This document shows, one piece after another, positions 6,164 to 24,976 of a stretch of 40,437 nucleotides of DNA. The stretch's first letter is position 1, and each line of letters starts with the position of its first letter. The DNA lies in assembly GCA_013153035.1 (NCBI GenBank), contig JAADFF010000012.1, forward strand, positions 1-40,437, read 5' to 3'. The DNA is from Dictyoglomota bacterium. GTDB lineage: Bacteria > Coprothermobacterota > Coprothermobacteria > Coprothermobacterales > JAADFF01. The notes under the pieces are model-generated. The model worked only from the letters and a program-made list of their open reading frames with translations. It did not search any database and was not told the DNA's origin. The translations under genes and the position numbers were made by a program.

Positions 6164-6203
6164 AGCTATCCCCCCACTCTACTTGGAATAATTATAAAAC
6201 AAT

Positions 6204-6278
6204 TGGAGCCGGCGAGAGGATTCGAACCTCCGACCTGCTGATTACGAATCAGCTGCTCTGCCACTGAGCTACGCCGGC
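6204..6278 (-). tRNA. tRNA-Thr(CGT)
   Basis: The minus strand folds as a cloverleaf of 75 bases. The acceptor stem is GCCGGCG/CGCCGGC, the D stem GCTC/GAGC, and the anticodon loop TTCGTAA between GCTGA and TCAGC. The T loop is TTCGAAT, with discriminator T and an encoded CCA end. Anticodon CGT reads the threonine codon ACG. It is last in a cluster of three tRNAs before argS. Confidence 0.96.
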
Positions 6279-6293
6279 TCCTAATAAAAATAA

Positions 6294-6368
6294 TGGTGGG
6301 CGGTGCAGGATTCGAACCTGCGACCTCTTGTGTGTGAGACAAGCGCTCTCCCACTGAGCTAACCGCCC
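6294..6368 (-). tRNA. tRNA-Val(CAC)
   Basis: This 75-base cloverleaf lies on the minus strand. The acceptor stem is GGGCGGT/ACCGCCC, the anticodon stem CTTGT/ACAAG with loop CTCACAC, and the T loop TTCGAAT. The discriminator is A and CCA is encoded. Anticodon CAC reads GTG codons. It lies 12 bases from tRNA-Ser and 15 from tRNA-Thr, so all three are likely cut from one transcript. Confidence 0.96.
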
Positions 6369-6380
6369 ATCCAAAAAGAT

Positions 6381-6474
6381 TGGCGGAGAGGGAGGGATTC
6401 GAACCCTCGACACGGCCTTTCAACCGTGTATCCGCTTAGCAGGCGGACGCCTTCGGCCACTCGGCCACCTCTCC
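6381..6474 (-). tRNA. tRNA-Ser(GCT)
   Basis: This is a class II tRNA of 94 bases with a long variable arm. The acceptor stem is GGAGAGG/CCTCTCC, the anticodon stem TCCGC/GCGGA with loop CTGCTAA, and the variable stem is around ACACGG/CCGTGT. The T loop is TTCGAAT, the discriminator G, and CCA is encoded. Anticodon GCT reads AGC and AGT serine codons. It is first in the cluster, directly downstream of a strong promoter. Confidence 0.96.
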
Positions 6475-6543: not shown

Positions 6544-7398
6544 GTGGATATAAAAACACGTATTTGTCTACCACTACTGTGGAAACTAGAGAAATATATG
6601 AAAAAGCCATATCATCCATTTAACGAAAAAGGTGATATATGGGAAAATCTTTATCTTTGGCAATACAAGACAACAGAAAAGACACTAAAACACTTTAATG
6701 TGGAGTTTTCAGGTAAAGTTGTCATGGATATCGGATGTGGCACAGGTGGAAAATCGGCATATCTGGCACAGTTTGCAGATAAAGTTATAGGTATAGATAT
6801 TAACCCCCACGCTATCAACAAAGGGAAACAACTTGTTAAAAAACATAATGCTGATGTAGCTGATAGGGTTATATTGAGGGTTGACAATGCATACAACATG
6901 GACCAGCCAGATAGTTCCGTTGATATTATTTTTATGGATGATGTATGGGAACACATAGAAAAACCATCAAAAGCCTTAAGAGAAGCTATTCGGGTTGTCA
7001 AACCAGGTGGATATATTCTCATTGCTTTCCCTCCACTAAATCATCCATGGGCTGCCCATGTTAATGATCTTATTTCTATTCCATGGATACACTATTGTTT
7101 GTGGGAAAAATACATTGTTAGATGGTATATACACGAAGCGTTAAGAATAGAAAACGGTATAGAAAGATTAAAGTTTAAGGGAATCAAACCAACAGATAAA
7201 CGAATAACATATATCAATCATATGACGCTAGAACGTACATTGGCTATTCTGTACAAGTACAGAAGCAACATAGATATTTATGATTTCTCCTATGATTTAT
7301 TGAAGATACCACTTGCTAAGTTTTTTAGCAAACTTGAGCGCATAGGGCTTTTCTTTTTCTCTAAATATTATTTCACTCTGAGAAAGAGGGAAAGATGA
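6544..7398 (+). CDS. Class I SAM-dependent methyltransferase
   Basis: This is a 284-residue protein with a Rossmann-fold methyltransferase core. Motif I is VVMDIGCGTGGKSAYLA (Gly-rich loop about residues 62-69). The acidic SAM-ribose contact is in VIGIDINPHAI, motif IV region DIIFMDDVWEHI, and the post-motif VVKPGGYILIAFPPLNH. This is the Methyltransf_11 type. The substrate is unknown. Its position ahead of two TagA-like glycosyltransferases suggests a sugar or lipid carrier in surface polymer synthesis, but that is inference from context. I chose GTG 6544 because GGAGGGGG lies 6-7 bases upstream. TTG 6514 upstream and ATG 6598 downstream are possible but poorly supported. The stop overlaps the start of the next gene, indicating an operon. 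The last 60 residues are basic and aromatic and may lie near the membrane. Confidence 0.85.
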   Translation: MDIKTRICLPLLWKLEKYMKKPYHPFNEKGDIWENLYLWQYKTTEKTLKHFNVEFSGKVVMDIGCGTGGKSAYLAQFADKVIGIDINPHAINKGKQLVKKHNADVADRVILRVDNAYNMDQPDSSVDIIFMDDVWEHIEKPSKALREAIRVVKPGGYILIAFPPLNHPWAAHVNDLISIPWIHYCLWEKYIVRWYIHEALRIENGIERLKFKGIKPTDKRITYINHMTLERTLAILYKYRSNIDIYDFSYDLLKIPLAKFFSKLERIGLFFFSKYYFTLRKRER

Positions 7399-8129
7399 TG
7401 AGGCTTTGCATTGGACGTATACCTGTAGACATATTAGATAACAATGAACAGGCTAAAAAGCGTATTATCGAACTCGCGAATCGAACTAATACCCCATCAT
7501 TTGTGGTTACATTGAATCCAGAGATAGCGTACCGTGCAGAAATAGACAGACGTATAAGATACATTGTTAGGCATTCTTCCCTCAACATCATTGATGGTAT
7601 TGGTATAGCAAAGATTATCAAATGGAAAACGGGAATAACTCCCACAAGAATTACTGGAGTAGATACTATATGGCAAGTTCTTATGAATGTCGATGATGAT
7701 ATTCCCGTATTCTTATATGGTGCCAAACCCGATGTTTTGAATACAGTCGTGGAAAAGCTTGTATCATCTAATCCTAACATAAACATTGTAGGTATATCTC
7801 ATGGATATAGACCTTGGGACAGGGTTGCAGAAGAGATTATAAAAGCTCGCCCTCGTTTGCTACTGGTAGCATTGGGAGCTGGAAGGCAAGAAACTTTTAT
7901 GTATCATTATATTAGACCCCTAACAATTCCTATTCTCAGCATAGGCGTTGGTGGCAGTTTTGATGTATGGAGCGGAAAAGTAGAAAGAGCTCCTAAGCAG
8001 GTACAGGATTTGGGACTCGAGTGGTTATGGCGTAATATTAAGCAACCTTCTCGGATAGGCAGACTTATGTACAGCATGATGTATATGATTACAGCTTTAA
8101 AAAAAGAGGTGCGTGAGTGTGAGAAGTAA
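7395..8129 (+). CDS. WecG/TagA/CpsF-family glycosyltransferase (copy 1)
   Basis: This is a 244-residue member of the GT26 family, which transfers N-acetylmannosaminuronate or ManNAc-like sugars to undecaprenyl-linked GlcNAc early in teichoic-acid or wall-polymer synthesis. Family landmarks are VTLNPEI (Thr39, Asn41), NIIDGIGIA (Asp67, the position of the proposed catalytic base in TagA), FLYGAKP, GAGRQETF and the C-terminal GVGGSFDVWSGKVERAP. The basic amphipathic tail (about 205-244, EWLWRNIKQPSRIGRL) matches the membrane-anchoring appendage known in TagA. ATG codons at 7395 and 7398 are both possible. AGAGGG spacing slightly favours 7398. The start overlaps the methyltransferase stop. A second, related copy follows with an 11-base overlap. 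Confidence 0.92.
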   Translation: MMRLCIGRIPVDILDNNEQAKKRIIELANRTNTPSFVVTLNPEIAYRAEIDRRIRYIVRHSSLNIIDGIGIAKIIKWKTGITPTRITGVDTIWQVLMNVDDDIPVFLYGAKPDVLNTVVEKLVSSNPNINIVGISHGYRPWDRVAEEIIKARPRLLLVALGAGRQETFMYHYIRPLTIPILSIGVGGSFDVWSGKVERAPKQVQDLGLEWLWRNIKQPSRIGRLMYSMMYMITALKKEVRECEK

Positions 8130-8847
8130 ATACATATGTGGTATAAGGGTTGATGAGATCGATAGAAAATCTGCTCTAAAATTTGCTAAACAGCTACTTT
8201 TAAACGATACATACAACTTTAAATGGATAACATCTATAAATCCGGAAAAGTGTGGCAGAGCTATGGAAAATGAGGCACTAAGAAATACCATCAACGGCTC
8301 TATAATGACTATCCCAGATGGTATTGGTATTGTCTGGGCTGGCCGTATGAACGGACTTTTATTAAAACATCGCATACCGGGTATAGACTTCGCATGGAAT
8401 ATGATCCGGCTAGTACATAAATACAACCTCAAACTTTATCTATACGGTGCTAAACCTGAAAGCAACCAAGGTGCTGTAGCACGTATAGAGGCAACAATGC
8501 CTGGCATTAATATCGTAGGTGCTATAGACGGCTATAGAGAGTGGAACGAAGTAGCAGCGGATATAGCAGATAAAAAGCCTGATCTCCTCCTCATAGCTAT
8601 GGGAGGAGGTAAACAGGAAGAGTTTATCTGGAAATACAAAGACATATTACCTGTTAAAGTTGCCATGGGTGTGGGCGGTAGCTTTGATGTGTGGGCTGGT
8701 AAGGTAGAAAGGGCACCTCGTCTATGGCAGGCGATAGGAATGGAATGGTTCTATAGAATAGCCAAGGAGCCATTCAGAATACCAAGGCTCAAATACGGCT
8801 TGAGATTCATGATGTGTAGCATGTATCAGATGCTGTATAATATGTAA
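8119..8847 (+). CDS. WecG/TagA/CpsF-family glycosyltransferase (copy 2)
   Basis: This is a 242-residue GT26 paralogue of the preceding gene. It shows the same landmarks in the same order: ITSINPEK, TIPDGIGIV (Asp67), LYLYGAKP, MGGGKQEEF and GVGGSFDVWAGKVERAP, ending in an amphipathic tail with EWFYRIAKEPFRIPRL. I chose GTG 8119 because GAGGTG lies 8 bases upstream. GTG 8113 sits only 2 bases from that site. By eye the two copies are clearly divergent rather than a recent duplication. They therefore probably add different residues, or act on different acceptors, in one surface polymer. Confidence 0.92.
   Translation: MRSKYICGIRVDEIDRKSALKFAKQLLLNDTYNFKWITSINPEKCGRAMENEALRNTINGSIMTIPDGIGIVWAGRMNGLLLKHRIPGIDFAWNMIRLVHKYNLKLYLYGAKPESNQGAVARIEATMPGINIVGAIDGYREWNEVAADIADKKPDLLLIAMGGGKQEEFIWKYKDILPVKVAMGVGGSFDVWAGKVERAPRLWQAIGMEWFYRIAKEPFRIPRLKYGLRFMMCSMYQMLYNM
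8836..8841 (+). promoter_or_regulatory. Possible -10 element ahead of the SCIFF-like peptide gene
   Basis: A perfect TATAAT overlaps the end of the second TagA-like gene, 32 bases before the peptide ATG. The predicted transcript start near 8848 would leave a short leader holding the GGAGGTG ribosome-binding site. I see no good -35 box at 16-18 bases, so this is a tentative promoter that could let the peptide be expressed separately from the genes upstream. Confidence 0.35.
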
Positions 8848-14854: not shown

Positions 14855-15916
14855 ATGAGGAAGGAAAGAACTATTTATTTTATTCTCAGAACGCTGCTTC
14901 AAGGTAAGACCAGTTATTGGAACCTCATCAGGGAAAACGACACTGTTCTTCCAGAGTTTATTTCTACTCTGAAAGAACTCGTTGATGGCGGATATGTAGC
15001 CGCTGACGAGGAGGGACTCCTCTATCTGACAGAAAAAGGTAAGGAATATGCAGAGAAACTTGGTATCAGAGCATATGTAGATCCTGTTTGTGATCACTGT
15101 AAAGGTAAAACTGTTGTTATTAAAGAAGAGTATAAACCACTATACGAGGAGTTTCTGAAAATTGCCAAAGATAGACCAAAGGCTATTACCGCTTTTGACC
15201 AAGGTTATGTTACACCAGAAGATACTATAAGAAGAGTACTCCTTATGCACCGCTTTGGTGATGTAGAAAATAAGAGAATTCTTATACTAGGTGATGATGA
15301 CCTAACATCTATCGCTCTTGCTCTTACAGGACTTCCTAAAGAGATTCTTGTGCTTGAGATAGATGAAAGACTTATTAACTTCATTAATAAAGTTGCGGAG
15401 GAAAGAGGTTGGACCAATGTTAAGGCTATGACATACGATGCCAGGTATCCATTCTCCGATGATATCCAACGTCAGTATGACACATTTGTCACAGATCCTG
15501 TTGAAACAGTAAAAGGTATTAGCCTATTCCTATCTAGATGTATTCAGGGACTTAAAGGAGAAGGTTCTGCAGGATATTTTGGTCTTACACACATTGAGGC
15601 ATCTCGTAAGAAGTGGCACCAGATTCAAAGAAACCTGCTTGATATGAATTTGGTTATCACAGATATTATCAGAAGATTTAGTGACTATGCCCTTGAAAAC
15701 GAGGATATTGTCAAAGAAGACCTCAACTTCAGAGTATATACTGAGGCACCAGTTAAAGTTAACTTCCCTGATGCCTATTTCTATACATCTAACATGTACC
15801 GTGTTGAGCTTATAGGTGATCCCAAACCCATTTTTGACGGAAAAGTTGAGTGGGAAAGAGATCTATACCTTGACGATGAGGCATATGTTACAGCAGAAAA
15901 GGAAAGTCACGAGTAA
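14855..15916 (+). CDS. bpsA: Branched-chain polyamine synthase (N4-bis(aminopropyl)spermidine synthase family)
   Basis: BpsA adds aminopropyl groups from decarboxylated SAM to the secondary amine of spermidine. The resulting quaternary branched polyamines stabilise nucleic acids in thermophiles. This 353-residue protein has an N-terminal winged-helix region (about 1-70), a CDHC pair (Cys79, Cys82), then a methyltransferase-like fold with LGDDDLTSIALALTG (about 145-159), LVLEIDERLINFI (Glu168) and FVTDPVETVKG. The acidic GDDD motif is characteristic of the family. ATG 14855 has a strong AAAGGAGGGTG site. The gene stands alone between a TATAAT and an intrinsic terminator. Genes for decarboxylated SAM and spermidine are not in the window, so the substrate supply is inferred. 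Confidence 0.9.
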   Translation: MRKERTIYFILRTLLQGKTSYWNLIRENDTVLPEFISTLKELVDGGYVAADEEGLLYLTEKGKEYAEKLGIRAYVDPVCDHCKGKTVVIKEEYKPLYEEFLKIAKDRPKAITAFDQGYVTPEDTIRRVLLMHRFGDVENKRILILGDDDLTSIALALTGLPKEILVLEIDERLINFINKVAEERGWTNVKAMTYDARYPFSDDIQRQYDTFVTDPVETVKGISLFLSRCIQGLKGEGSAGYFGLTHIEASRKKWHQIQRNLLDMNLVITDIIRRFSDYALENEDIVKEDLNFRVYTEAPVKVNFPDAYFYTSNMYRVELIGDPKPIFDGKVEWERDLYLDDEAYVTAEKESHE

Positions 15917-16222: not shown

Positions 16223-16522
16223 TTATAGCTCTTCTATACCGTTGATAAGGAGAAACTCGTAAAGGGCCTCTTTACGAGCCTTCTCTTCAAGAGACAACTC
16301 CTCTTTCTCCTTAAGTTCTGCATAAGCCTTCTTAGCTTCTTCAACAATATCAACAAGAGGTTCATCACCCTGCTCCAACCTGTCTACCCAATCAGAATAC
16401 ATCTTGTGACGAATCTTAGCTGCTTGATACTCATCAGAACCCTCAGGATACTTTAACGTATCCTGCTTAGCCAGTGCTTTAAGTCTCTTCGTGGAAGCAA
16501 TAACATCTTCTAAACTAAGCAC
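16223..16522 (-). CDS. Uncharacterised 99-residue protein at the end of the V-ATPase operon
   Basis: I do not recognise this protein. It is short, highly charged and probably all helical, with no membrane segment, cysteine motif or signal peptide. It begins VLSLEDVIASTKRLKALAK, has a central EYQAAKIRHKMYSDWVDRLEQ helix, then an EEAKKAYAELKEKEEL stretch likely to coil, and ends in FLLINGIEEL. I chose GTG 16522 because AGGAGG lies 8 bases upstream. An upstream TTG at 16549 would read through that site. It overlaps the subunit D stop by 8 bases and is followed by the operon terminator, so it is co-translated with the ATPase. A role in assembly or regulation of the enzyme is only suggested by position. 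Confidence 0.8.
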   Translation of the reverse strand: MLSLEDVIASTKRLKALAKQDTLKYPEGSDEYQAAKIRHKMYSDWVDRLEQGDEPLVDIVEEAKKAYAELKEKEELSLEEKARKEALYEFLLINGIEEL

Positions 16523-17159
16523 TACGCACCCCTCCTTCTTTTTTTGCAAGAGTTTCTTTTATCTTCATAAGCCTTACAATATGGCTCCTTTCCATCTCAT
16601 CGAGACGGAGTTCTATCATCTTGATGGCCTCTTCTGTTTGGGGAATAATCGTGTATTCCAAGGCATTAACCCTTCTTTTTGTCTTTTCCATTTCTTCAGC
16701 TAAAATGTGAAGTGCCTTCTCCACAACGGCTAATCTAATGATATCTTCTAAAAGTTTTACATACTCACTAAGAGCAAGGTCCATGTCACTCGATACAAAT
16801 AGTGTTGGATACACGAGCTTAATCTCCTTAGTCGTTAATTTATAAGATGGGATAGGTATAGACAAGACATAGCGTACAGAAGCCTCAACGGTCTGTGAAA
16901 CTTTACTCTCCGTACGCATTCTCTCTATAGCCCTATCAGAAGACGCTGCATCGGCCATAGCCATATACGTTTCAATGGTATCCATCTGCTTAGTAACATG
17001 GTCCTTCAAAGATTTGTATTCATCGATCAAGGTCATAAATTCCTTACGGAGACCTTCCAACTTATCTTTTAAAAGCTTGTGTCCCCTCTTGGCCATCTTC
17101 AAGCGCCTTTTCAGGCGCAGAAGTGTCATTCGATTTGGAGTCACATTTGTTAGTGCCAT
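16515..17159 (-). CDS. atpD: V/A-type ATPase subunit D (central shaft)
   Basis: Subunit D forms the coiled-coil rotor shaft inside the A3B3 head. It has 214 residues, close to the usual length. The N-terminus NVTPNRMTLLRLKRRLKMAKRG is the family hallmark and starts the long first helix. The C-terminal helix carries EKTKRRVNALEYTIIPQ. The middle (about 80-140) is the more variable globular part. It starts at ATG 17159, three bases after the subunit B stop, in the same operon. The last codons overlap the small unknown gene. Confidence 0.96.
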   Translation of the reverse strand: MALTNVTPNRMTLLRLKRRLKMAKRGHKLLKDKLEGLRKEFMTLIDEYKSLKDHVTKQMDTIETYMAMADAASSDRAIERMRTESKVSQTVEASVRYVLSIPIPSYKLTTKEIKLVYPTLFVSSDMDLALSEYVKLLEDIIRLAVVEKALHILAEEMEKTKRRVNALEYTIIPQTEEAIKMIELRLDEMERSHIVRLMKIKETLAKKEGGVRSA

Positions 17160-17162
17160 GGC

Positions 17163-18542
17163 TTACTCCTCCGCCTTCTTTGGCATATATTTTTCAATCA
17201 TTTCAAGCTTAATACGCTTGAGCTCACTCCTTGGAAGCATGGAAAGGAGCCTCCAACCTATATCCAGGGTCTCCTCAATGGTTCTGTTTTCAAACTGTCC
17301 CTGTCTGATAAATTCCTCCTCGAACCTGTCGGCAAACTCCATGTACTTTCTATCCAGCTCACTGATAGATGATTCACCAAGAACAACTGCCAGCTCTCTG
17401 ACTTCTTTACCCTTAGCATATGCAGCATACAGCTGGTTTGCTACACCAGAATGATCTTCTCTTGTCTTACCTTTACCAATACCCTTTTGCATCAAACGGG
17501 ACAAAGATTGCAGAACATCTATTGGAGGATAAATCCCTCTTCTGTGAAGGTCACGGCTAAGGAATATCTGACCTTCGGTAATATAACCAGTAAGGTCAGG
17601 AACAGGGTGCGTTCTATCGTCTTCTGGCATGGTAAGAATTGGAATCTGGGTAACAGAACCCTTCTTACCTTTGATACGACCTGCACGTTCATATATAGTA
17701 GCAAGGTCTGTATACATGTAGCCTGGATAACCACGACGGCCGGGAACCTCTTTACGAGCAGCAGAAATTTCACGCAGAGCCTCACAATAGTTGGTCATAT
17801 CTGTAAGAATAACAAGAACGTGCATACCAAGGTCAAATGCCAGATACTCAGCAGCGGTGAGAGCCACACGAGGTGTAGCTATACGTTCAATAGCTGGGTC
17901 ATTAGCAAGGTTGAGGAATACAACTGTTCTATCAAGAGTTCCTCTCTTTCTAAAGTCTTCGAGGAAGAAGTTAGCCTCTTCAAAGGTAATACCCATTGCA
18001 GCAAAGACAACAGCGAAATCTTCACCGGTACCTCTAACCCTTGCCTGTCTGGCAATCTGGGCTGCCAGCTCTGGGTGAGGAAGACCAGAACCAGAGAATA
18101 TTGGCAGTTTCTGACCACGAACAAGTGTGTTCATACCATCAATTGCAGAGACACCTGTCTGAATAAACTCATTAGGATAATCTCTCGCTGTTGGGTTGAT
18201 AGGACTACCGGTAATATCCAGTTCTTTTTCTGGAACAGGAGCAGGGCTGCCATCTATTGGTCTACCAATACCATCAAATACACGACCTAGAATTTCAGGA
18301 GACACACCAAATGTTAGACCTTTTCCCAAAAATCTGACTTTTGTATCTGTAAGGTTGATACCATGGGTACCCTCAAACACCTGTACAACAGCATAGCCTT
18401 CCGAAGTTTCCAAAACCTGACCGTATCTTGTATGACCACCAACTTCTATCTCAACAAGCTCACCATAGGCGGCATCAGAAACACCTTGCACAACCACTAG
18501 TGGACCAGATATCTCCGATATGGTGGTGTATTCCCTAATCAT
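17163..18542 (-). CDS. atpB: V/A-type ATPase subunit B (non-catalytic)
   Basis: Subunit B alternates with A in the soluble head. It has 459 residues. The N-terminal beta barrel starts [17 protein letters not shown]. The nucleotide-fold region lacks a P-loop at the expected place ([21 protein letters not shown]), as is normal for B. It retains [32 protein letters not shown] and the C-terminal [13 protein letters not shown]. The start ATG 18542 overlaps the subunit A stop as ATGA, giving tight coupling and equal production of A and B. Confidence 0.97.
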
Positions 18543-20317
18543 ACCTGCTCACCACCTTTCTTCATCAATGTCTCAAAGGCTGCATCTATCTCATCGTGAA
18601 TAGCCTTAATTTCATCTAACCTATCTGGTGGGATAAATCTCATACGAGAAATCTTTTCTCGTATAGGCAGGGCAATAATGTCTTTAACATCTACACCTGC
18701 CTCTAGGGCCTCAAGGGCCTTGTGATGGAAATGCAGAACATTACGAAGCATGTGATATTGTTTCTCCAGTGGACAGTATGTATCTATATCATCAAATGCG
18801 TCCTGCTGCAGGAAGTCTTCTCTCAGAGATCTTGCAGTTTCCAAAAGAAGCTGGTCATGAGGAGATAAAGCGTCATAACCAACAAGACGTACCAATTCCT
18901 GAAGTTCTGACTCCTGTTGAAGAATCCTCATTGCTTCATGTCTATTATCCACCCAGTCAAGAGCAACATGTTCTTTGGCCCACTCACCTACTCTGTCAAC
19001 ATATAGAGAATAACTTCTTAACCAGTGAATGGCTGGAAAGTGACGGGCAAATGCCAGTTGTTGGTCAAGAGACCAGAACACACGAACCTCACGTAGAGTT
19101 GCCTGAACAACTGGGTCAGAAAGGTCACCACCAGGTGGAGAAACAGCACCTATGACAGATACGGAGCCAGTTCTTTCAGGGCTACCTAATGCCTCAATCA
19201 TACCTGCTCTCTCGTAAAATGAGGAAATTCTGGAAGCTAGATAAGCTGGATAACCTTCCTCACCAGGCATCTCTTCAAGACGACCAGAAATTTCACGCAT
19301 AGCCTCAGCCCATCTAGAAGTAGAATCAGCCATCAAGGCTACATTGTAACCCATGTCTCTGAAATACTCTGCTATAGCAATACCCGTAAAGACTGATGCC
19401 TCACGAGCTGCAACAGGCATGTTAGATGTATTAGCAATTAATACTGTTCTATCCATAAGAGGACCGCCTGTTCTTGGGTCTTTTAGCTCAGGAAACTCAA
19501 TAAGAACATCTGTCATCTCATTACCACGCTCACCACAACCGATATACACAACAACATCGGCATCGGACCAACGGGCAAGCTGATGCTGAATAACTGTCTT
19601 ACCACTACCAAATGGACCAGGAACAGCTGCCGTACCACCTTTAACAATGGGGAAGAATGTATCAATTGTTCTCTGTCCGGTTATCATAGGCTCAGAAGCA
19701 GCAATTTTCTTGCGATATGGTCTTCCCATACGGACAGGCCATTTCTGATACATCTTAATCTCTTTTTTCTCTTTGCCAGTATCAATAACAGCTACAACCT
19801 CTTCTATGGTAAAGTCGCCACTTTTAATATCAACGACTTTACCACGAATGCCCGGGGGAACCATGATTTTGTGTATAACAGTAGATGTTTCAGGCACTTC
19901 ACCAAGTATATCACCTTCGGATACCTCATCGCCTATTTTTACCTTGGGTTCAAAATGCCATTTGGCATTTCTATCAAGGGAAGGTGCCTCAACACCTCTA
20001 ACAAGGAAAGATCCTCCCATTTTCCAGAGAACTTCAAGAGGTCTCTGGATACCATCGTAAATATTCTTAACAAGACCTGGACCTAGCTCAACACTGAGAA
20101 GCTCACCAGTACCAACAACTTCTTCACCAGGTCTAACGCCACCGGTTTCTTCGTAAACCTGTATATAAGCCCTGTCTCCCTCAATACGTATAACCTCACC
20201 AAATAGGCCAAGAGAACCAACTCGTACAACCTCAAACATCTTAACACCTTGCATCTCTTTGGCCACGACGAGGGGACCGGCCACTCGTGCTACTTTTCCT
20301 CGTACAACTTGTGCCAT
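18539..20317 (-). CDS. atpA: V/A-type ATPase catalytic subunit A
   Basis: Subunit A hydrolyses or makes ATP. It has 592 residues. The beta-barrel domain starts [20 protein letters not shown], followed by the A-specific insertion or bulge (about 110-190). The P-loop is [13 protein letters not shown] (234-246), with the catalytic Glu263 in [14 protein letters not shown]. Downstream signatures include [20 protein letters not shown] and [20 protein letters not shown]. No intein or truncation is present. It lies 18 bases after subunit F, with a GAAGGGG ribosome-binding site, and overlaps B by 4 bases. Confidence 0.98.
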
Positions 20318-20335: not shown

Positions 20336-20632
20336 CTATTCAAAGATCCTTATACCAAGGGCACGTTCTATCTTCTTTTCAAGAACCTTAGATGCCTTCT
20401 CCTCGTCTTTACCGAGAATAACCACAGAAAACTCTGGTCTACTGACATTATCTAAGAGTTCTTGGTACCGAGTATATACATCTTCAGATACGATCAATAT
20501 GGCATACTCCTTATTAGAGATAATATCCTTTATCTTTTGAGTAATATCTTCATTCTCATCAAACCACTCTACCCCTATAAGGGCAAGAGCTCTAATATGT
20601 GGTAAGTTGCCTATAGCTGCTATTTTATACAT
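20336..20632 (-). CDS. atpF: V/A-type ATPase subunit F
   Basis: Subunit F is a small rotor protein bound to the D shaft. It has 98 residues from ATG 20632, giving the family-like start MYKIAAIGNLPHIRALALIGVEWF. It shows a Rossmann-like alternation, with the conserved stretch EYAILIVSEDVYTRYQELLD and FSVVILGKDEE. A GTG at 20641 would add three residues, and the ribosome-binding sites do not settle the choice. It overlaps the end of subunit C by 8 bases and precedes subunit A. The symbol atpF here means the V-type subunit, not the F-type b subunit. Confidence 0.92.
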   Translation of the reverse strand: MYKIAAIGNLPHIRALALIGVEWFDENEDITQKIKDIISNKEYAILIVSEDVYTRYQELLDNVSRPEFSVVILGKDEEKASKVLEKKIERALGIRIFE

Positions 20633-21422
20633 AGACCTCACGCACCCTCTTTACAATTTCTTCCCTTGACAAATGTCCCCATATTCCTGTTGCAACAATT
20701 CGAACGTTCCTATATGCTATATCCAAAGCCCTGTAATAAAATACTATTTCGTATAAAGGATTGCTTGTCATTGAAAGACCACTAAGTTTTAGCAACAGAT
20801 ACTCATCAACAAGCACCTCTAAATCCAAAATAGGCATATCACCTAAGTCCGATGCAAGTCCCAAAATAGAAGCCACTTGTTTGGGATCAGCTTCTCCTCT
20901 TTCCAGAAGAACAGAAATCTTATCTCCCATATACATCGGGGCGAACAAGTGTCTCATTGTAGTAAGATCCCATCCATAAGCGTGGGCACGCTTATAGAGA
21001 AACAGAAGCAAATATCTATACCACTCATCATATTCTGCTTCCAAATACCTATCATCAAATGAACGAACTGTCGCCCATAGCTTGTCCGTAGCATCAATCA
21101 TATCCTCAAGGGTTAATGTTTCTTTATCTTTGACAAACCAATCAGGAAATAAAGCCAAAGCAATAGGTCTTTCATCATCTACAACAGTAAAGTAGTCTGT
21201 TACTTCTTCTTCTATATGCTGTTTAGCAAGGATAACAATATCACTTAGTGAAACATTACCTTCAATAGCTGAAAATCCTTTTATCCCATTAAGCATGGAA
21301 ACAAATTCTGACCATGAAGTAGCATCAGCCATACGAACAACCTGGGACTTTGTTGGAATTTCACCTAAACGGGCTGCAATCGTCCCTCCAAGAAGCCTCT
21401 CGTAGTGCTTCCACACGATCAT
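20625..21422 (-). CDS. atpC: V/A-type ATPase subunit C (rotor-socket subunit)
   Basis: This 265-residue protein is in the position of subunit C/d, the funnel-shaped socket joining the D-F shaft to the membrane ring. Sequence conservation in this family is low. Assignment rests on length, on helical content, and on its place between E and F, the order known from Thermus and Enterococcus operons. Visible elements include KHYERLLGGTIAARLGEIPT, LKLSGLSMTSNPLYEIVFYY and a C-terminal ALDIAYRNVRIVATGIWG, which resembles the family's closing helix. The start ATG 21422 overlaps subunit E as ATGA. Confidence 0.9.
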   Translation of the reverse strand: MIVWKHYERLLGGTIAARLGEIPTKSQVVRMADATSWSEFVSMLNGIKGFSAIEGNVSLSDIVILAKQHIEEEVTDYFTVVDDERPIALALFPDWFVKDKETLTLEDMIDATDKLWATVRSFDDRYLEAEYDEWYRYLLLFLYKRAHAYGWDLTTMRHLFAPMYMGDKISVLLERGEADPKQVASILGLASDLGDMPILDLEVLVDEYLLLKLSGLSMTSNPLYEIVFYYRALDIAYRNVRIVATGIWGHLSREEIVKRVREVYV

Positions 21423-22204
21423 GATACTACCCCCTTCAGAACAGCATCTCTGATCGCAGCCAAATTACTTCGAACAAGGTCTTCTACTATAACCGATGGT
21501 GATACATCTATCTTGGCATTACCAGTATCAACAAGCACAATCATGTTTTCATCTTTGATAGTTACAAACTTTACCTCTTGACCAAACTCTCTTTGAAGTT
21601 CCTTAACAACAGACATGGGTAATTTATCGGAAACAATAACAGATTTTACTTCTTTTGATCCTATAAGCTGGGATACATAAGAAGCATACAAATCAGCAGC
21701 ATCCCCGGTAAGCACTTTTAGCATTTCATTCTTTATATCATCTATGACACGGGTAAAGACCTCATTTATAAACTTTCTCTTCTCCACAGCAAAGATACTT
21801 TCTATAACAGCCTTTTCTTCTTTAAGTTTTGCCTCAAGATGTTTAATTGTTTGCTGCCACTCGAAATCAATATCAGCTACAATATCTCTGATTACCTTCA
21901 ATGTTTCAGCTACAACCTCTTCGATAGCTCTATCCAGTTCTACAGACAGCTCTTTATATATATTGTCAACAAACTGCCTGTTTACAATATGTTTTTCTTC
22001 TTTATCTTCAGTAGTTGATTCCTGAAGGTCTTGAACAATGTCATACCACAACTCTTTGGCATACTCCGTTGCTTCTTCTCTTATTATGGCAGGAAGCGTA
22101 TTCTCAACTGCACTTTTGATACCATCAATATCAAGTCCATCATTGGTATACGCACCGAGAGCCTCAAGCCATCTGGTCTTTACCCTTTCTTGTAAGCCAG
22201 CCAC
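21419..22204 (-). CDS. atpE: V/A-type ATPase subunit E (peripheral stalk)
   Basis: Subunit E pairs with the H/G-type subunit to form the outer stalk that holds the head still. It has about 261 residues, longer than the roughly 200 usual in the family. The extra length is in the N-terminal helical part. The long charged helix runs to about residue 170 (HLEAKLKEEKAVIESIFAVE), then a globular end with EVKFVTIKDENMIVLVDTG and DLVRSNLAAIRDAVLKG that binds the top of A/B. I chose GTG 22204 since AGAGG lies 6 bases upstream. GTG 22213 is inside that site. It follows K by a very short gap. Confidence 0.92.
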   Translation of the reverse strand: MAGLQERVKTRWLEALGAYTNDGLDIDGIKSAVENTLPAIIREEATEYAKELWYDIVQDLQESTTEDKEEKHIVNRQFVDNIYKELSVELDRAIEEVVAETLKVIRDIVADIDFEWQQTIKHLEAKLKEEKAVIESIFAVEKRKFINEVFTRVIDDIKNEMLKVLTGDAADLYASYVSQLIGSKEVKSVIVSDKLPMSVVKELQREFGQEVKFVTIKDENMIVLVDTGNAKIDVSPSVIVEDLVRSNLAAIRDAVLKGVVS

Positions 22205-22215
22205 ACTCCCCACCT

Positions 22216-22686
22216 CTATATCTTAACCTGGTTAAGCATGATGATTGTGGCAAGCAGACCAACAAGGGCATATGTCTCAACGATAGCAGGAATGATAATA
22301 GCACGACCAGCAAGCTCCTGTCTGCGGGCTACCATCTGAAGAGCAGCGGCAGAAGCCTTACCCTGCCAAACACCAGACATTAGCTCGGCAACCATAACAG
22401 GGATAAAGGCTGCAAAAATAGCCAATCCTGTAGCAAGATCCATTTTGTCTATATTATTGGCTATTTTGGCAATACCAAGGAACATAGCGACAAAACCATA
22501 GAAACCCTGTGTACCAGGAAGAGCCTGCATGATTAGTGCAAGAGCACCAAGTTCTGGTTTTTCTCTTTGAACTCCTGCTGCTGCCTCACCAGCGATACCA
22601 ACACCAATTGCAGAACCAACAGAAGCTAAACCTGCACCAATACCTGCACCTACTAAAGCAATTGCTGCACCCCAAGATACGATCAT
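22216..22686 (-). CDS. atpK: V/A-type ATPase proteolipid subunit K, predicted Na+-binding
   Basis: This is the rotor-ring subunit, 156 residues with four transmembrane helices in two hairpins. The ion-binding residues reported for Enterococcus hirae NtpK all have counterparts: Leu56, Thr59 and Gln60 in LPGTQGFYGF, Gln108 in SGVWQGK and the essential Glu137 in IVETYA. A proton-type ring would not be expected to keep this Thr/Gln/Gln set. I therefore predict Na+ coupling, based on remembered positions rather than an alignment. The glycine-rich first helix (GAGIGAGLASVGSAIGVG) is typical for tight ring packing. ATG 22686 overlaps the subunit I stop by 4 bases. Confidence 0.95.
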   Translation of the reverse strand: MIVSWGAAIALVGAGIGAGLASVGSAIGVGIAGEAAAGVQREKPELGALALIMQALPGTQGFYGFVAMFLGIAKIANNIDKMDLATGLAIFAAFIPVMVAELMSGVWQGKASAAALQMVARRQELAGRAIIIPAIVETYALVGLLATIIMLNQVKI

Positions 22687-24659
22687 TTAGCATCAACCTC
22701 CTTCACAAATTTGTGATATTTCCCATCAAGTGTTATAGGTTTAAACTCACGCCCCGTCCCTTCGAAGAATCGGCCATACATCTCAAGGAATATAAGACGG
22801 GATGAGTGTACAAACGAACCAAGAAGCCCCAATGCCAAGTTAAGGGCATGGGCAAGAATAAGTAATATGATACCTATGACTATCTTAAACATAGGAGCAA
22901 GCATGGTATTAAGCACATGGGCAACAATACCAGTAGAAAGGTTTAGAGCAAGCAAACGAGAATAAGACAAAGTATCGGCCAAGAAACTAGCCACACCATA
23001 CCCACCAGCGATACCATACAGTGAAATCAGACCGAAGGCAATTCTACCAATAGGATTTTTAATATGCCTACCTTGTGTCAGCACAATTAATAGGGCTGAG
23101 CCCATAGCAATATATTTAGCGTACATTAGTGTTGTGGCACTAACTCCTACACCAATAATAGGAAGCACAAGTACTACAAGGGATAGTAAGAATACCTGCC
23201 ACGCAAACACATCAAATACGGCTGTTTGCCAATCACCTTGCTTAAATGACCACCATGCCTTAATACTCATAGCATACATCTGCATCACAATACCTATAAT
23301 CAAAACCGTGCCAAGTCCCAAATTGGTATTGTGGACAACATCAAAGAAACTGAAGAACCCAAATACTTTTCCATTGTATACAAAAGGATTTTCTCCAAAC
23401 CAAGTCCATGTAACTATACCGAATATAAGAGACGTTAAACCCAAATAGAAAATAAATAGAAGTGTATTCTTTGTGCCTTCTTCGGCTTTTTTATAGCGAA
23501 TTAAGAAATAAAGTGCTGTAAGCATTAACAATGCACCATATCCCGCATCGCCAAGTGCTATACCAAAGAAGATAAAGAATGCAGGAGCTGTAAACTTCGT
23601 AGGATCAAAGAATCTATAATGAGGAACACCATATAGCTTGGTAACAATTTCAAATGGTCTCAGCCACCATGGATTTTCTATCTTAACAGGTGGATCTTCT
23701 TCCTCACTCGGATCACTCATCAGCACTCTAACAGGATAGTTATGTTCAAGATTATATTTAACCCTATCTGCTTTATCTTTATCTATCCAGCCCCAAAGGT
23801 AAACAAACTTTTTTCCCTTAAGAACATTATCAGAAACAACTTGCCACTTTTCTTTTTCAACTTCTAAGTAGTCAACCAAAACTTTATATGTATCTTGCTG
23901 ATCATTTAGCCATCTGAGAACCTCTTCTATCTGTTTCCGCCTTTTATCCTCTAATTCAGCCCGTCTTGTCTCAAGCTCTTTAATATACTCTGCAGGTTCG
24001 ATATCTACTGCTGGCAGAGATACAGCATATTCCTTCCATCTTTCAACAACTTGGGCAGCCTTATCAGAATAATACACGATAAGTACATACCATTGCTTTC
24101 CCGTCTTCTTAGCCCACATCCAATAGTAACCATCAATGGTCTTTAAATCTTCCCATAATGGAGCAACATATCTTTCTGAAATTTCAATGGGTAAATATCT
24201 CAAATGCTTGAGATTATGAAGAACAGACAGCTGAATAGTTATAAACTGCCAAGGTTTTAACATCTCTATTTGATAAGAAATATGTTCTATTTCTTTATCA
24301 ATATGATGGATATCATCAAGCATCTTTTGGAGCTCGTTAAACAACATCTCACCCTTAGTTTCCCATAGAGATCTTGCCTCATCTATGCTCATGACCTTAC
24401 GAGGTTCAAACATGCTCTTTTTAAACGGAGTATCACCATGCAGGGAAACAAACTCTTCAGCGTTTCTCCATATAGAGAGATATGTACTAATCTTCTGGAG
24501 AGTTTGCCTGACAGTCTCTTTGATATTACCACCTGTTTCTTGTAATTCCTCTATATGTTCCACATGGAAATCTCTAATACTGGCAATATATTCTAAAATC
24601 TCTGGAACTTTATTCCCCCACGCATATATTTCAAGCTTCTTTAGCGGTTTAACAGCCAT
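22683..24659 (-). CDS. atpI: V/A-type ATPase subunit I (membrane stator, a-subunit homologue)
   Basis: Subunit I carries the half-channels for ion passage and anchors the outer stalks. It has 658 residues. The N-terminal cytoplasmic half (about 1-330) is helical and charged, with KLEIYAWGNKVPEILEYIASI and long coiled regions. The C-terminal half has about eight membrane helices, including ALGDAGYGALLMLTALYFLIRY and YGVASFLADTLSYSRLLALNL. That last segment holds the conserved functional Arg of the family (SYSRLLAL). The tail ends FLEMYGRFFEGTGREFKPI. It lies between the H-type stalk subunit and K with minimal gaps. Confidence 0.97.
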   Translation of the reverse strand: MAVKPLKKLEIYAWGNKVPEILEYIASIRDFHVEHIEELQETGGNIKETVRQTLQKISTYLSIWRNAEEFVSLHGDTPFKKSMFEPRKVMSIDEARSLWETKGEMLFNELQKMLDDIHHIDKEIEHISYQIEMLKPWQFITIQLSVLHNLKHLRYLPIEISERYVAPLWEDLKTIDGYYWMWAKKTGKQWYVLIVYYSDKAAQVVERWKEYAVSLPAVDIEPAEYIKELETRRAELEDKRRKQIEEVLRWLNDQQDTYKVLVDYLEVEKEKWQVVSDNVLKGKKFVYLWGWIDKDKADRVKYNLEHNYPVRVLMSDPSEEEDPPVKIENPWWLRPFEIVTKLYGVPHYRFFDPTKFTAPAFFIFFGIALGDAGYGALLMLTALYFLIRYKKAEEGTKNTLLFIFYLGLTSLIFGIVTWTWFGENPFVYNGKVFGFFSFFDVVHNTNLGLGTVLIIGIVMQMYAMSIKAWWSFKQGDWQTAVFDVFAWQVFLLSLVVLVLPIIGVGVSATTLMYAKYIAMGSALLIVLTQGRHIKNPIGRIAFGLISLYGIAGGYGVASFLADTLSYSRLLALNLSTGIVAHVLNTMLAPMFKIVIGIILLILAHALNLALGLLGSFVHSSRLIFLEMYGRFFEGTGREFKPITLDGKYHKFVKEVDAK

Positions 24660-24661
24660 GA

Positions 24662-24976
24662 TCAGATCCCCCCGTGAAGCCTATGAATGAGATCTGTGAT
24701 AATAGAAGTTTTCTTCTCCTGATATGTCTCCCATATTTTCTTTTCCAGATTCTTCAACTCAGCATTCGTCTTTTCAGATACTTGTTTATGATAAGCATCT
24801 ATTTCCTGTTGAATCTTTGCTTCTTCGGATTTTCTATAATTTTCTATAGCCTCCTCAAGAACCTGTTTGGTTTCTTTAGAAAGTAACTGAGGTGTTGTTT
24901 TCAAATTTGTCTCTACACTCTTCCACTGTTCTACAGCCTTATCCAACATTTCTATCTGCCTCATCAGTTCTGCCAC
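24662..24976 (-). CDS. atpH: V/A-type ATPase subunit H/G (peripheral stalk coiled coil)
   Basis: This is a 104-residue, almost entirely helical protein at the head of the ATPase genes. Heptad-like charged sequence runs through QIEMLDKAVEQWKSVETNL and EEAIENYRKSEEAKIQQEID, ending SIITDLIHRLHGGI. This size, position and composition match the stalk subunit that pairs with E (AhaH, Thermus G, Enterococcus NtpF). The start is GTG 24976 with GGGGGT about 8 bases upstream. It begins 14 bases after the decarboxylase stop, so the ATPase genes appear to be read on from that gene rather than from a promoter of their own. Confidence 0.88.
   Translation of the reverse strand: MAELMRQIEMLDKAVEQWKSVETNLKTTPQLLSKETKQVLEEAIENYRKSEEAKIQQEIDAYHKQVSEKTNAELKNLEKKIWETYQEKKTSIITDLIHRLHGGI

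Follow-up and report, generated by a model that had tools for sequence, protein, structure and literature searches.

In a group of Coprothermobacterota related to Coprothermobacter, the V-type ATPase operon carries, directly after the gene for subunit D, a tenth gene that encodes a small protein of a new family, which we call X. We regard X as a plausible, if unproven, accessory subunit of V1 that is specific to this lineage, and put the chances of this at about even. On this view, X would be a compact, soluble four-helix protein that is translated in coupling with D and attaches to the V1 head or to the central shaft. Few molecular machines have been studied as thoroughly as the rotary ATPases, and their list of subunits seldom grows; if our reading is correct, X would illustrate a way of rebuilding or regulating a V-ATPase. 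The setting is a group of genomes in which X is as conserved between families as the drive shaft, the connector is reduced, and an F-type enzyme is usually present.

The window, by which we mean the whole stretch of 40,437 nucleotides that was analysed, comes from a Coprothermobacterota genome of 1.43 Mb in 94 contigs. X occupies positions 16223-16522 on the minus strand, with a GTG start at 16522, 99 codons (99 residues) and a stop at 16223, and the plus-strand frame across the same interval is interrupted by stops. A first-pass annotation of the window had pointed to an open reading frame here without naming its strand; the frame exists, and it is the minus strand that bears it. The annotation had also described an 8-base overlap with atpD, a strong ribosome-binding site and a position just ahead of the operon terminator, and each of these proved correct. 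D runs from 17159 to 16515 and thus past the X start; the Shine-Dalgarno region (16523..16537, minus strand) lies inside the D coding sequence, with AAGGAGG 8 bases before the GTG; and an intrinsic terminator with an 8 bp stem, of which 7 are GC pairs, and a TTTTT tail follows X at 16191-16172 (minus strand). The same terminator element is found after X in G001, a weaker candidate in G006, and a scan for a hairpin with a T-run found none after X in G002-G005. X overlaps D in all six genomes where the overlap is measurable, by 8 bases in both genomes of family f1 and by 1 base in the four genomes of family f2 with a complete D. X is a real gene and not a chance frame, because seven genomes have an orthologue of it, in a single copy and with its frame open, and 30 of the 99 positions, including a run of 8, are invariant among them.

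The gene order of the operon, all on the minus strand, is G-I-K-E-C-F-A-B-D-X. X therefore falls outside the nine standard subunits, as had been proposed, since all nine lie upstream of it, with the caveat to this standard set that the operon's own subunit C is atypical. D (16515..17159; PF01813, ATP-synt_D, E 3.5e-51), B (17163..18542; ATP-synt_ab) and F (20336..20641; PF01990, E 4.9e-8) were named by Pfam, and the shortened, 265-residue C (20625..21422), of which the last 69 residues alone align with canonical C, by a Pfam match that fell slightly short of the cut-off. The remaining five were named by their position and by similarity between relatives: A (18539..20317) and I (22683..24659), which are 66% and 36% identical to the genes in the same place in G002, K (22216..22686; 156 residues), E (21419..22213) and G (24662..24976; 104 residues, no significant Pfam match). 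The E-position gene, which likewise has no significant Pfam match, encodes 264 residues in f1 versus 180-185 in f2 and in the sister family f3. Subunit K contains the motifs LPGTQ, WQG and PAIVET, which we take to be similar to the Na+ site in NtpK of Enterococcus hirae, and from this presumed likeness the pump may move Na+.

Downstream of X and convergent with the operon lies a gene for a BpsA-type branched-chain polyamine synthase (14855-15916, plus strand; Pfam E 3.1e-89). The gene downstream of X differs between the two X-bearing families, being bpsA in one and a pfkA-like gene (named by eye) in the other, so the shared block ends at X. Upstream of the operon, f1 and f2 also have a common order, with a decarboxylase gene and a purA-like gene (named by eye), and the linkage of X to the operon is therefore partly a matter of general synteny. 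Elsewhere in the window, an 85-residue frame at 6166-6423 (minus strand), overlapping tRNA-Thr, tRNA-Val and part of tRNA-Ser, probably does not encode a protein, and two tandem overlapping genes at 7395-8129 and 8113-8847 (plus strand), each of 244 residues, look like paralogues, sharing the motif GVGGSFDVWxGKVERAP as judged by eye.

A profile built from the seven members finds X in seven of the nine Coprothermobacterota genomes examined, one copy each: two in f1 (the window genome and G001) and five in f2. Both f3 genomes (G007 and G008) lack it; in G008, D is followed by a hexapeptide-repeat protein, and in G007, D runs off the contig. X stands directly after D in all seven carriers, although the contig of G006 includes only the end of D, and the carriers contain neither a second copy nor a copy away from the V-ATPase genes. 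Among 117 relatives, real matches are confined to the same seven genomes; weak matches in four others (E 0.003-0.025) cover 41-66 residues inside frames of 273-717 residues and were judged to be helical noise. X was found in none of the 43 genomes of the phylum of G083, in a search run without a positive control. A scan of a larger genome collection, which relies on short exact motifs that distant relatives would escape, returned five X loci, all from this group; among the sources are Coprothermobacter platensis DSM 11748, two MAGs of Coprothermobacter sp. and one of Coprothermobacteraceae. Since Coprothermobacter thus has cultured members, the role of X is directly testable. X was not found in a scan of viral contigs, and tblastn with the G002 protein gave no match in phage records. 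In the searches made, X is accordingly a lineage-specific gene confined to this order, and the comparison of gene neighbourhoods that the first-pass annotation had suggested comes out in its favor, as every relative found adjoins ATPase genes and none lies elsewhere in the genomes searched.

The X proteins are 99-105 residues long, with 33-40% charged residues and pI values of 4.7-5.1. An AlphaFold2 model based on the seven sequences (pLDDT 94.5, pTM 0.85) contains four helices, at residues 4-24, 30-51, 56-71 and 78-93, and its first 10 residues have a mean pLDDT of 90, with helix from residue 4 onwards. X is thus predicted with confidence to be a compact four-helix protein, and its earlier description as charged and helical agrees with both composition and model. 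Neither X nor its seven-member alignment matches anything credible in Pfam, NCBIfam or PHROGs, the best E value of a profile search of the PDB is 0.19, and a Foldseek search of the PDB with the model gave nothing under E 0.001 (best 0.49). The best VIA-align match (Z 6.6, rmsd 4.5, 89 residues aligned) is a MAST1 domain, which is level with enzyme I, designed bundles and others and thus reflects a common arrangement only. Among the matches listed, the sole rotary-ATPase chain is 8h9e_G of human F1 (Z 5.2, rmsd 3.9, 58 aligned), which lies in the noise band; no V-ATPase subunit is among the structural matches listed, an observation that excludes nothing. Five of the seven members match the phage family phrog_29956 (best E 3.4e-4), which within the 117 genomes matched two X genes only; we dropped this candidate because, among 10 controls made by shuffling or reversing X, one matched another family at E 8.5e-4. 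The profile searches thus yield no confident match to an unrelated family. No description of X was found in the available portions of the literature on Coprothermobacter and Coprothermobacterota, or on bacterial V-type ATPases and their accessory subunits.

The suggestion that X resembles a stalk protein fares less well. We rejected the idea that X is a fragment of C, G, E, F or D that has moved to a new place, as the hhalign probabilities of X against these subunits are at most 1.6%: 1.0% against the G alignment, 0.2% against 21 canonical C sequences (AC39), and 0.1%, 1.6% and 0.8% against D, E and F, respectively. X and the peripheral-stalk subunit G of V-ATPases are alike in being charged, helical and about 100 residues long, but X is predicted to be a compact four-helix protein, and the role of G appears to be taken by the separate G-position gene upstream of I (24976-24662). 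We likewise considered, and dropped, the idea that acidic X and basic D complement each other in charge, since D has a pI above 8 in 25 of 30 D loci, with or without X.

Conservation between families provides a further measure of constraint. Between the window and G002, sequence identities, for which shuffling gives a level of about 20%, are 75% for B, 66% for A, 55% for K, 40% for both X and D, 36% for I, 31% for E, 26% for C, 23% for G and 20% for F. On these alignments, X is as constrained between families as D, and more so than E, C, F and G. At short range, X changes faster than D and at a rate similar to that of C: from the window to G001, dN is 0.067 for X (dS not estimable, the method returning -1), 0.017 for D (dS 1.24) and 0.060 for C (dS 1.09), which tempers the argument from conservation. 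The invariant run, KRLKALAK, lies in helix 1 (permutation p 0.002), and a helical-wheel estimate, made without coordinates, places invariant residues on all sides of this helix, more than core packing needs.

Within the phylum, the presence of X accompanies two other features of the ATPases, the first of which concerns subunit C, which in V/A-ATPases normally forms the cap linking shaft and membrane ring. Canonical C is 320-364 residues long (21 sequences), and the f3 protein (G007) is full-length at 337 residues and matches Pfam AC39. In f1, only residues 197-265 of the 265-residue protein align with canonical C (hhalign probability 95.6%), and the window protein alone scores 26.3 bits against AC39, under the cut-off of 29 bits; in f2, the gene at the C position (e.g., L013 5102-5620) encodes 172-176 residues with no detectable match. 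Although the f2 protein is modelled with a pLDDT of 89.3, PDB searches with it returned nothing above noise (best E in Foldseek 3.3; best VIA match at Z 5.7, rmsd 2.4, 75 aligned), and its relation to canonical C is therefore one of position only. The AC39 family is found in none of the seven X genomes. Of 48 genomes with D, 31 have a detected C, and the X genomes make up seven of the other 17; the remaining ten show that genomes without X can also lack a recognisable C. The second feature is an F-type beta subunit, which scores over the family cut-off, besides the V-type operon, in six of the seven X genomes (G000-G005), and was not found over the cut-off in G006, which is 68% complete, or in f3 (G007 and G008). 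The contrasts in X, C length and F-type ATPase all fall on one branch of the tree, seven genomes versus two, and cannot be called independent. X is now better conserved between families than C (40 vs. 26% identity between the window and G002). A more specific form of the accessory-subunit reading, counted within it, casts X as a new subunit of the rotor or of V1 in a V-ATPase that has been remodelled, with a shrunken C, an added X and a coupling of shaft to ring that would differ from that of known V/A-ATPases; this we find quite unlikely.

The alternatives have to be weighed against how common the arrangement around D is. The first-pass annotation had read co-translation with D as a sign of an ATPase role; the overlap itself holds, but the argument drawn from it is weak. 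We examined 30 D loci, of which 27 lie outside the X-bearing order, and defined a coupled follower as a same-strand frame of at least 60 residues starting within -40 to +60 bases of the D stop. Such a follower is present in 13 of the 27. The family scan took 10 of these 13, leaving out L027, L045 and L046, and placed eight in families with no recognised ATPase link, namely IspD (two), Usp (two), NUDIX, TPR, hexapeptide and PEMT, whereas two matched nothing. Unrelated genes are thus commonly coupled to D just as tightly, and such coupling is on its own weak evidence for an ATPase role. The same counts lend credit to the idea that X is a passenger of the operon, with a function unrelated to the ATPase and a place behind D that it owes to ancestral synteny and to being transcribed together, as does the order that f1 and f2 have retained upstream of the operon. 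Most such followers, however, have recognisable general functions, whereas X is unusual in being small, lacking any known domain and being confined to one order, and a terminator follows it in the window and in G001; the passenger explanation therefore seems to us somewhat unlikely, but deserves to be taken seriously.

Two further explanations tie X to the ATPase. X could be a reversible inhibitor of ATP hydrolysis, by analogy with the alpha-proteobacterial zeta subunit or IF1, and such a protein would be of use to a cell with both F-type and V-type enzymes, a situation that the F-type beta subunits of six X genomes would allow. The available text on the zeta subunit of Paracoccus F1FO describes 104 residues, with a four-helix bundle at residues 19-103 and residues 1-18 unstructured in solution (PMC5795051), which X, at 99-105 residues and four helices, resembles in size and in an architecture that is generic; the basic, invariant helix 1 of X would also suit an inhibitor. 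The flexible N-terminal segment is absent from the AlphaFold2 model, however, in which a confidently predicted helix begins at residue 4; zeta is not among the sequence or fold matches listed, and it acts on F1, so that an inhibitor of this type appears distinctly improbable. X might instead be an assembly chaperone for D or for the DF shaft, remaining outside the finished enzyme, in line with the overlap of X and D in every measurable genome and with the identity of X between families being matched to that of D; yet D occurs without X in f3 and in the other bacteria searched, and we consider this highly doubtful. The earlier proposal of an uncharacterised subunit, assembly factor or inhibitor is compatible with the D-level conservation and with the terminator directly after X in the window and in G001.

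We thus favor X as an accessory subunit of V1. The invariant position after D in all seven carriers, the lack of copies elsewhere, the D-level identity, the low dN between close relatives, the conservation of helix 1 beyond the needs of packing and the co-occurrence of X with a short or unrecognised C and, in six of seven genomes, an F-type ATPase speak for a subunit, and the frequency of coupling, the general synteny, the short-range speed of change, the correlations that reduce to a single split and the lack of any sequence or fold match to ATPase subunits speak against it. We infer that X associates physically with the ATPase. More tentatively, the docking surface could comprise helix 1, where KRLKALAK is invariant on all faces, and helix 2, with the motif AKxRHxxYS, and the partner could be one of the slowly evolving subunits A, B or D, since X, unlike the drifting E, C, F and G, has kept pace with D from one family to the other.

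Extra genes in rotary ATPase operons have been described before, and X is best placed by comparison with them. In Pfam and NCBIfam scans, X has no sequence link to any of the systems considered here, of which the N-type and Mycoplasma proteins were set apart by description. DUF2764, the product of the second gene of the Bacteroides V-ATPase operon, is described, in the portion of the report available, as a conserved protein restricted to bacteria and without a known function (PMC10197588). Like X, it is an uncharacterised protein inside a V-ATPase operon whose host also has an F-type enzyme, but X is the last gene, after D, and no X protein matched DUF2764 in Pfam. N-type ATPase operons, as far as the accessible text goes, contain atpQ and atpR, which are absent from the standard F-type operon, the function of AtpQ being unknown (PMC5376962); AtpQ, a putative membrane protein, belongs to an F-related ATPase, whereas X is predicted to be charged and helical and belongs to a V-type operon. 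The Type 2 and Type 3 F1-like ATPase clusters of Mycoplasma include, according to the excerpts at hand, lineage-specific proteins without obvious similarity to others (PMC3369863), and resemble the present case in this respect, but comprise seven rebuilt genes and are F-type related. The zeta subunit of Paracoccus, in what its description offers (PMC5795051), is likewise an unusual extra subunit and a four-helix bundle of about 100 residues, but has an unstructured N-terminal part, an F-type partner and no sequence similarity to X that we could find.
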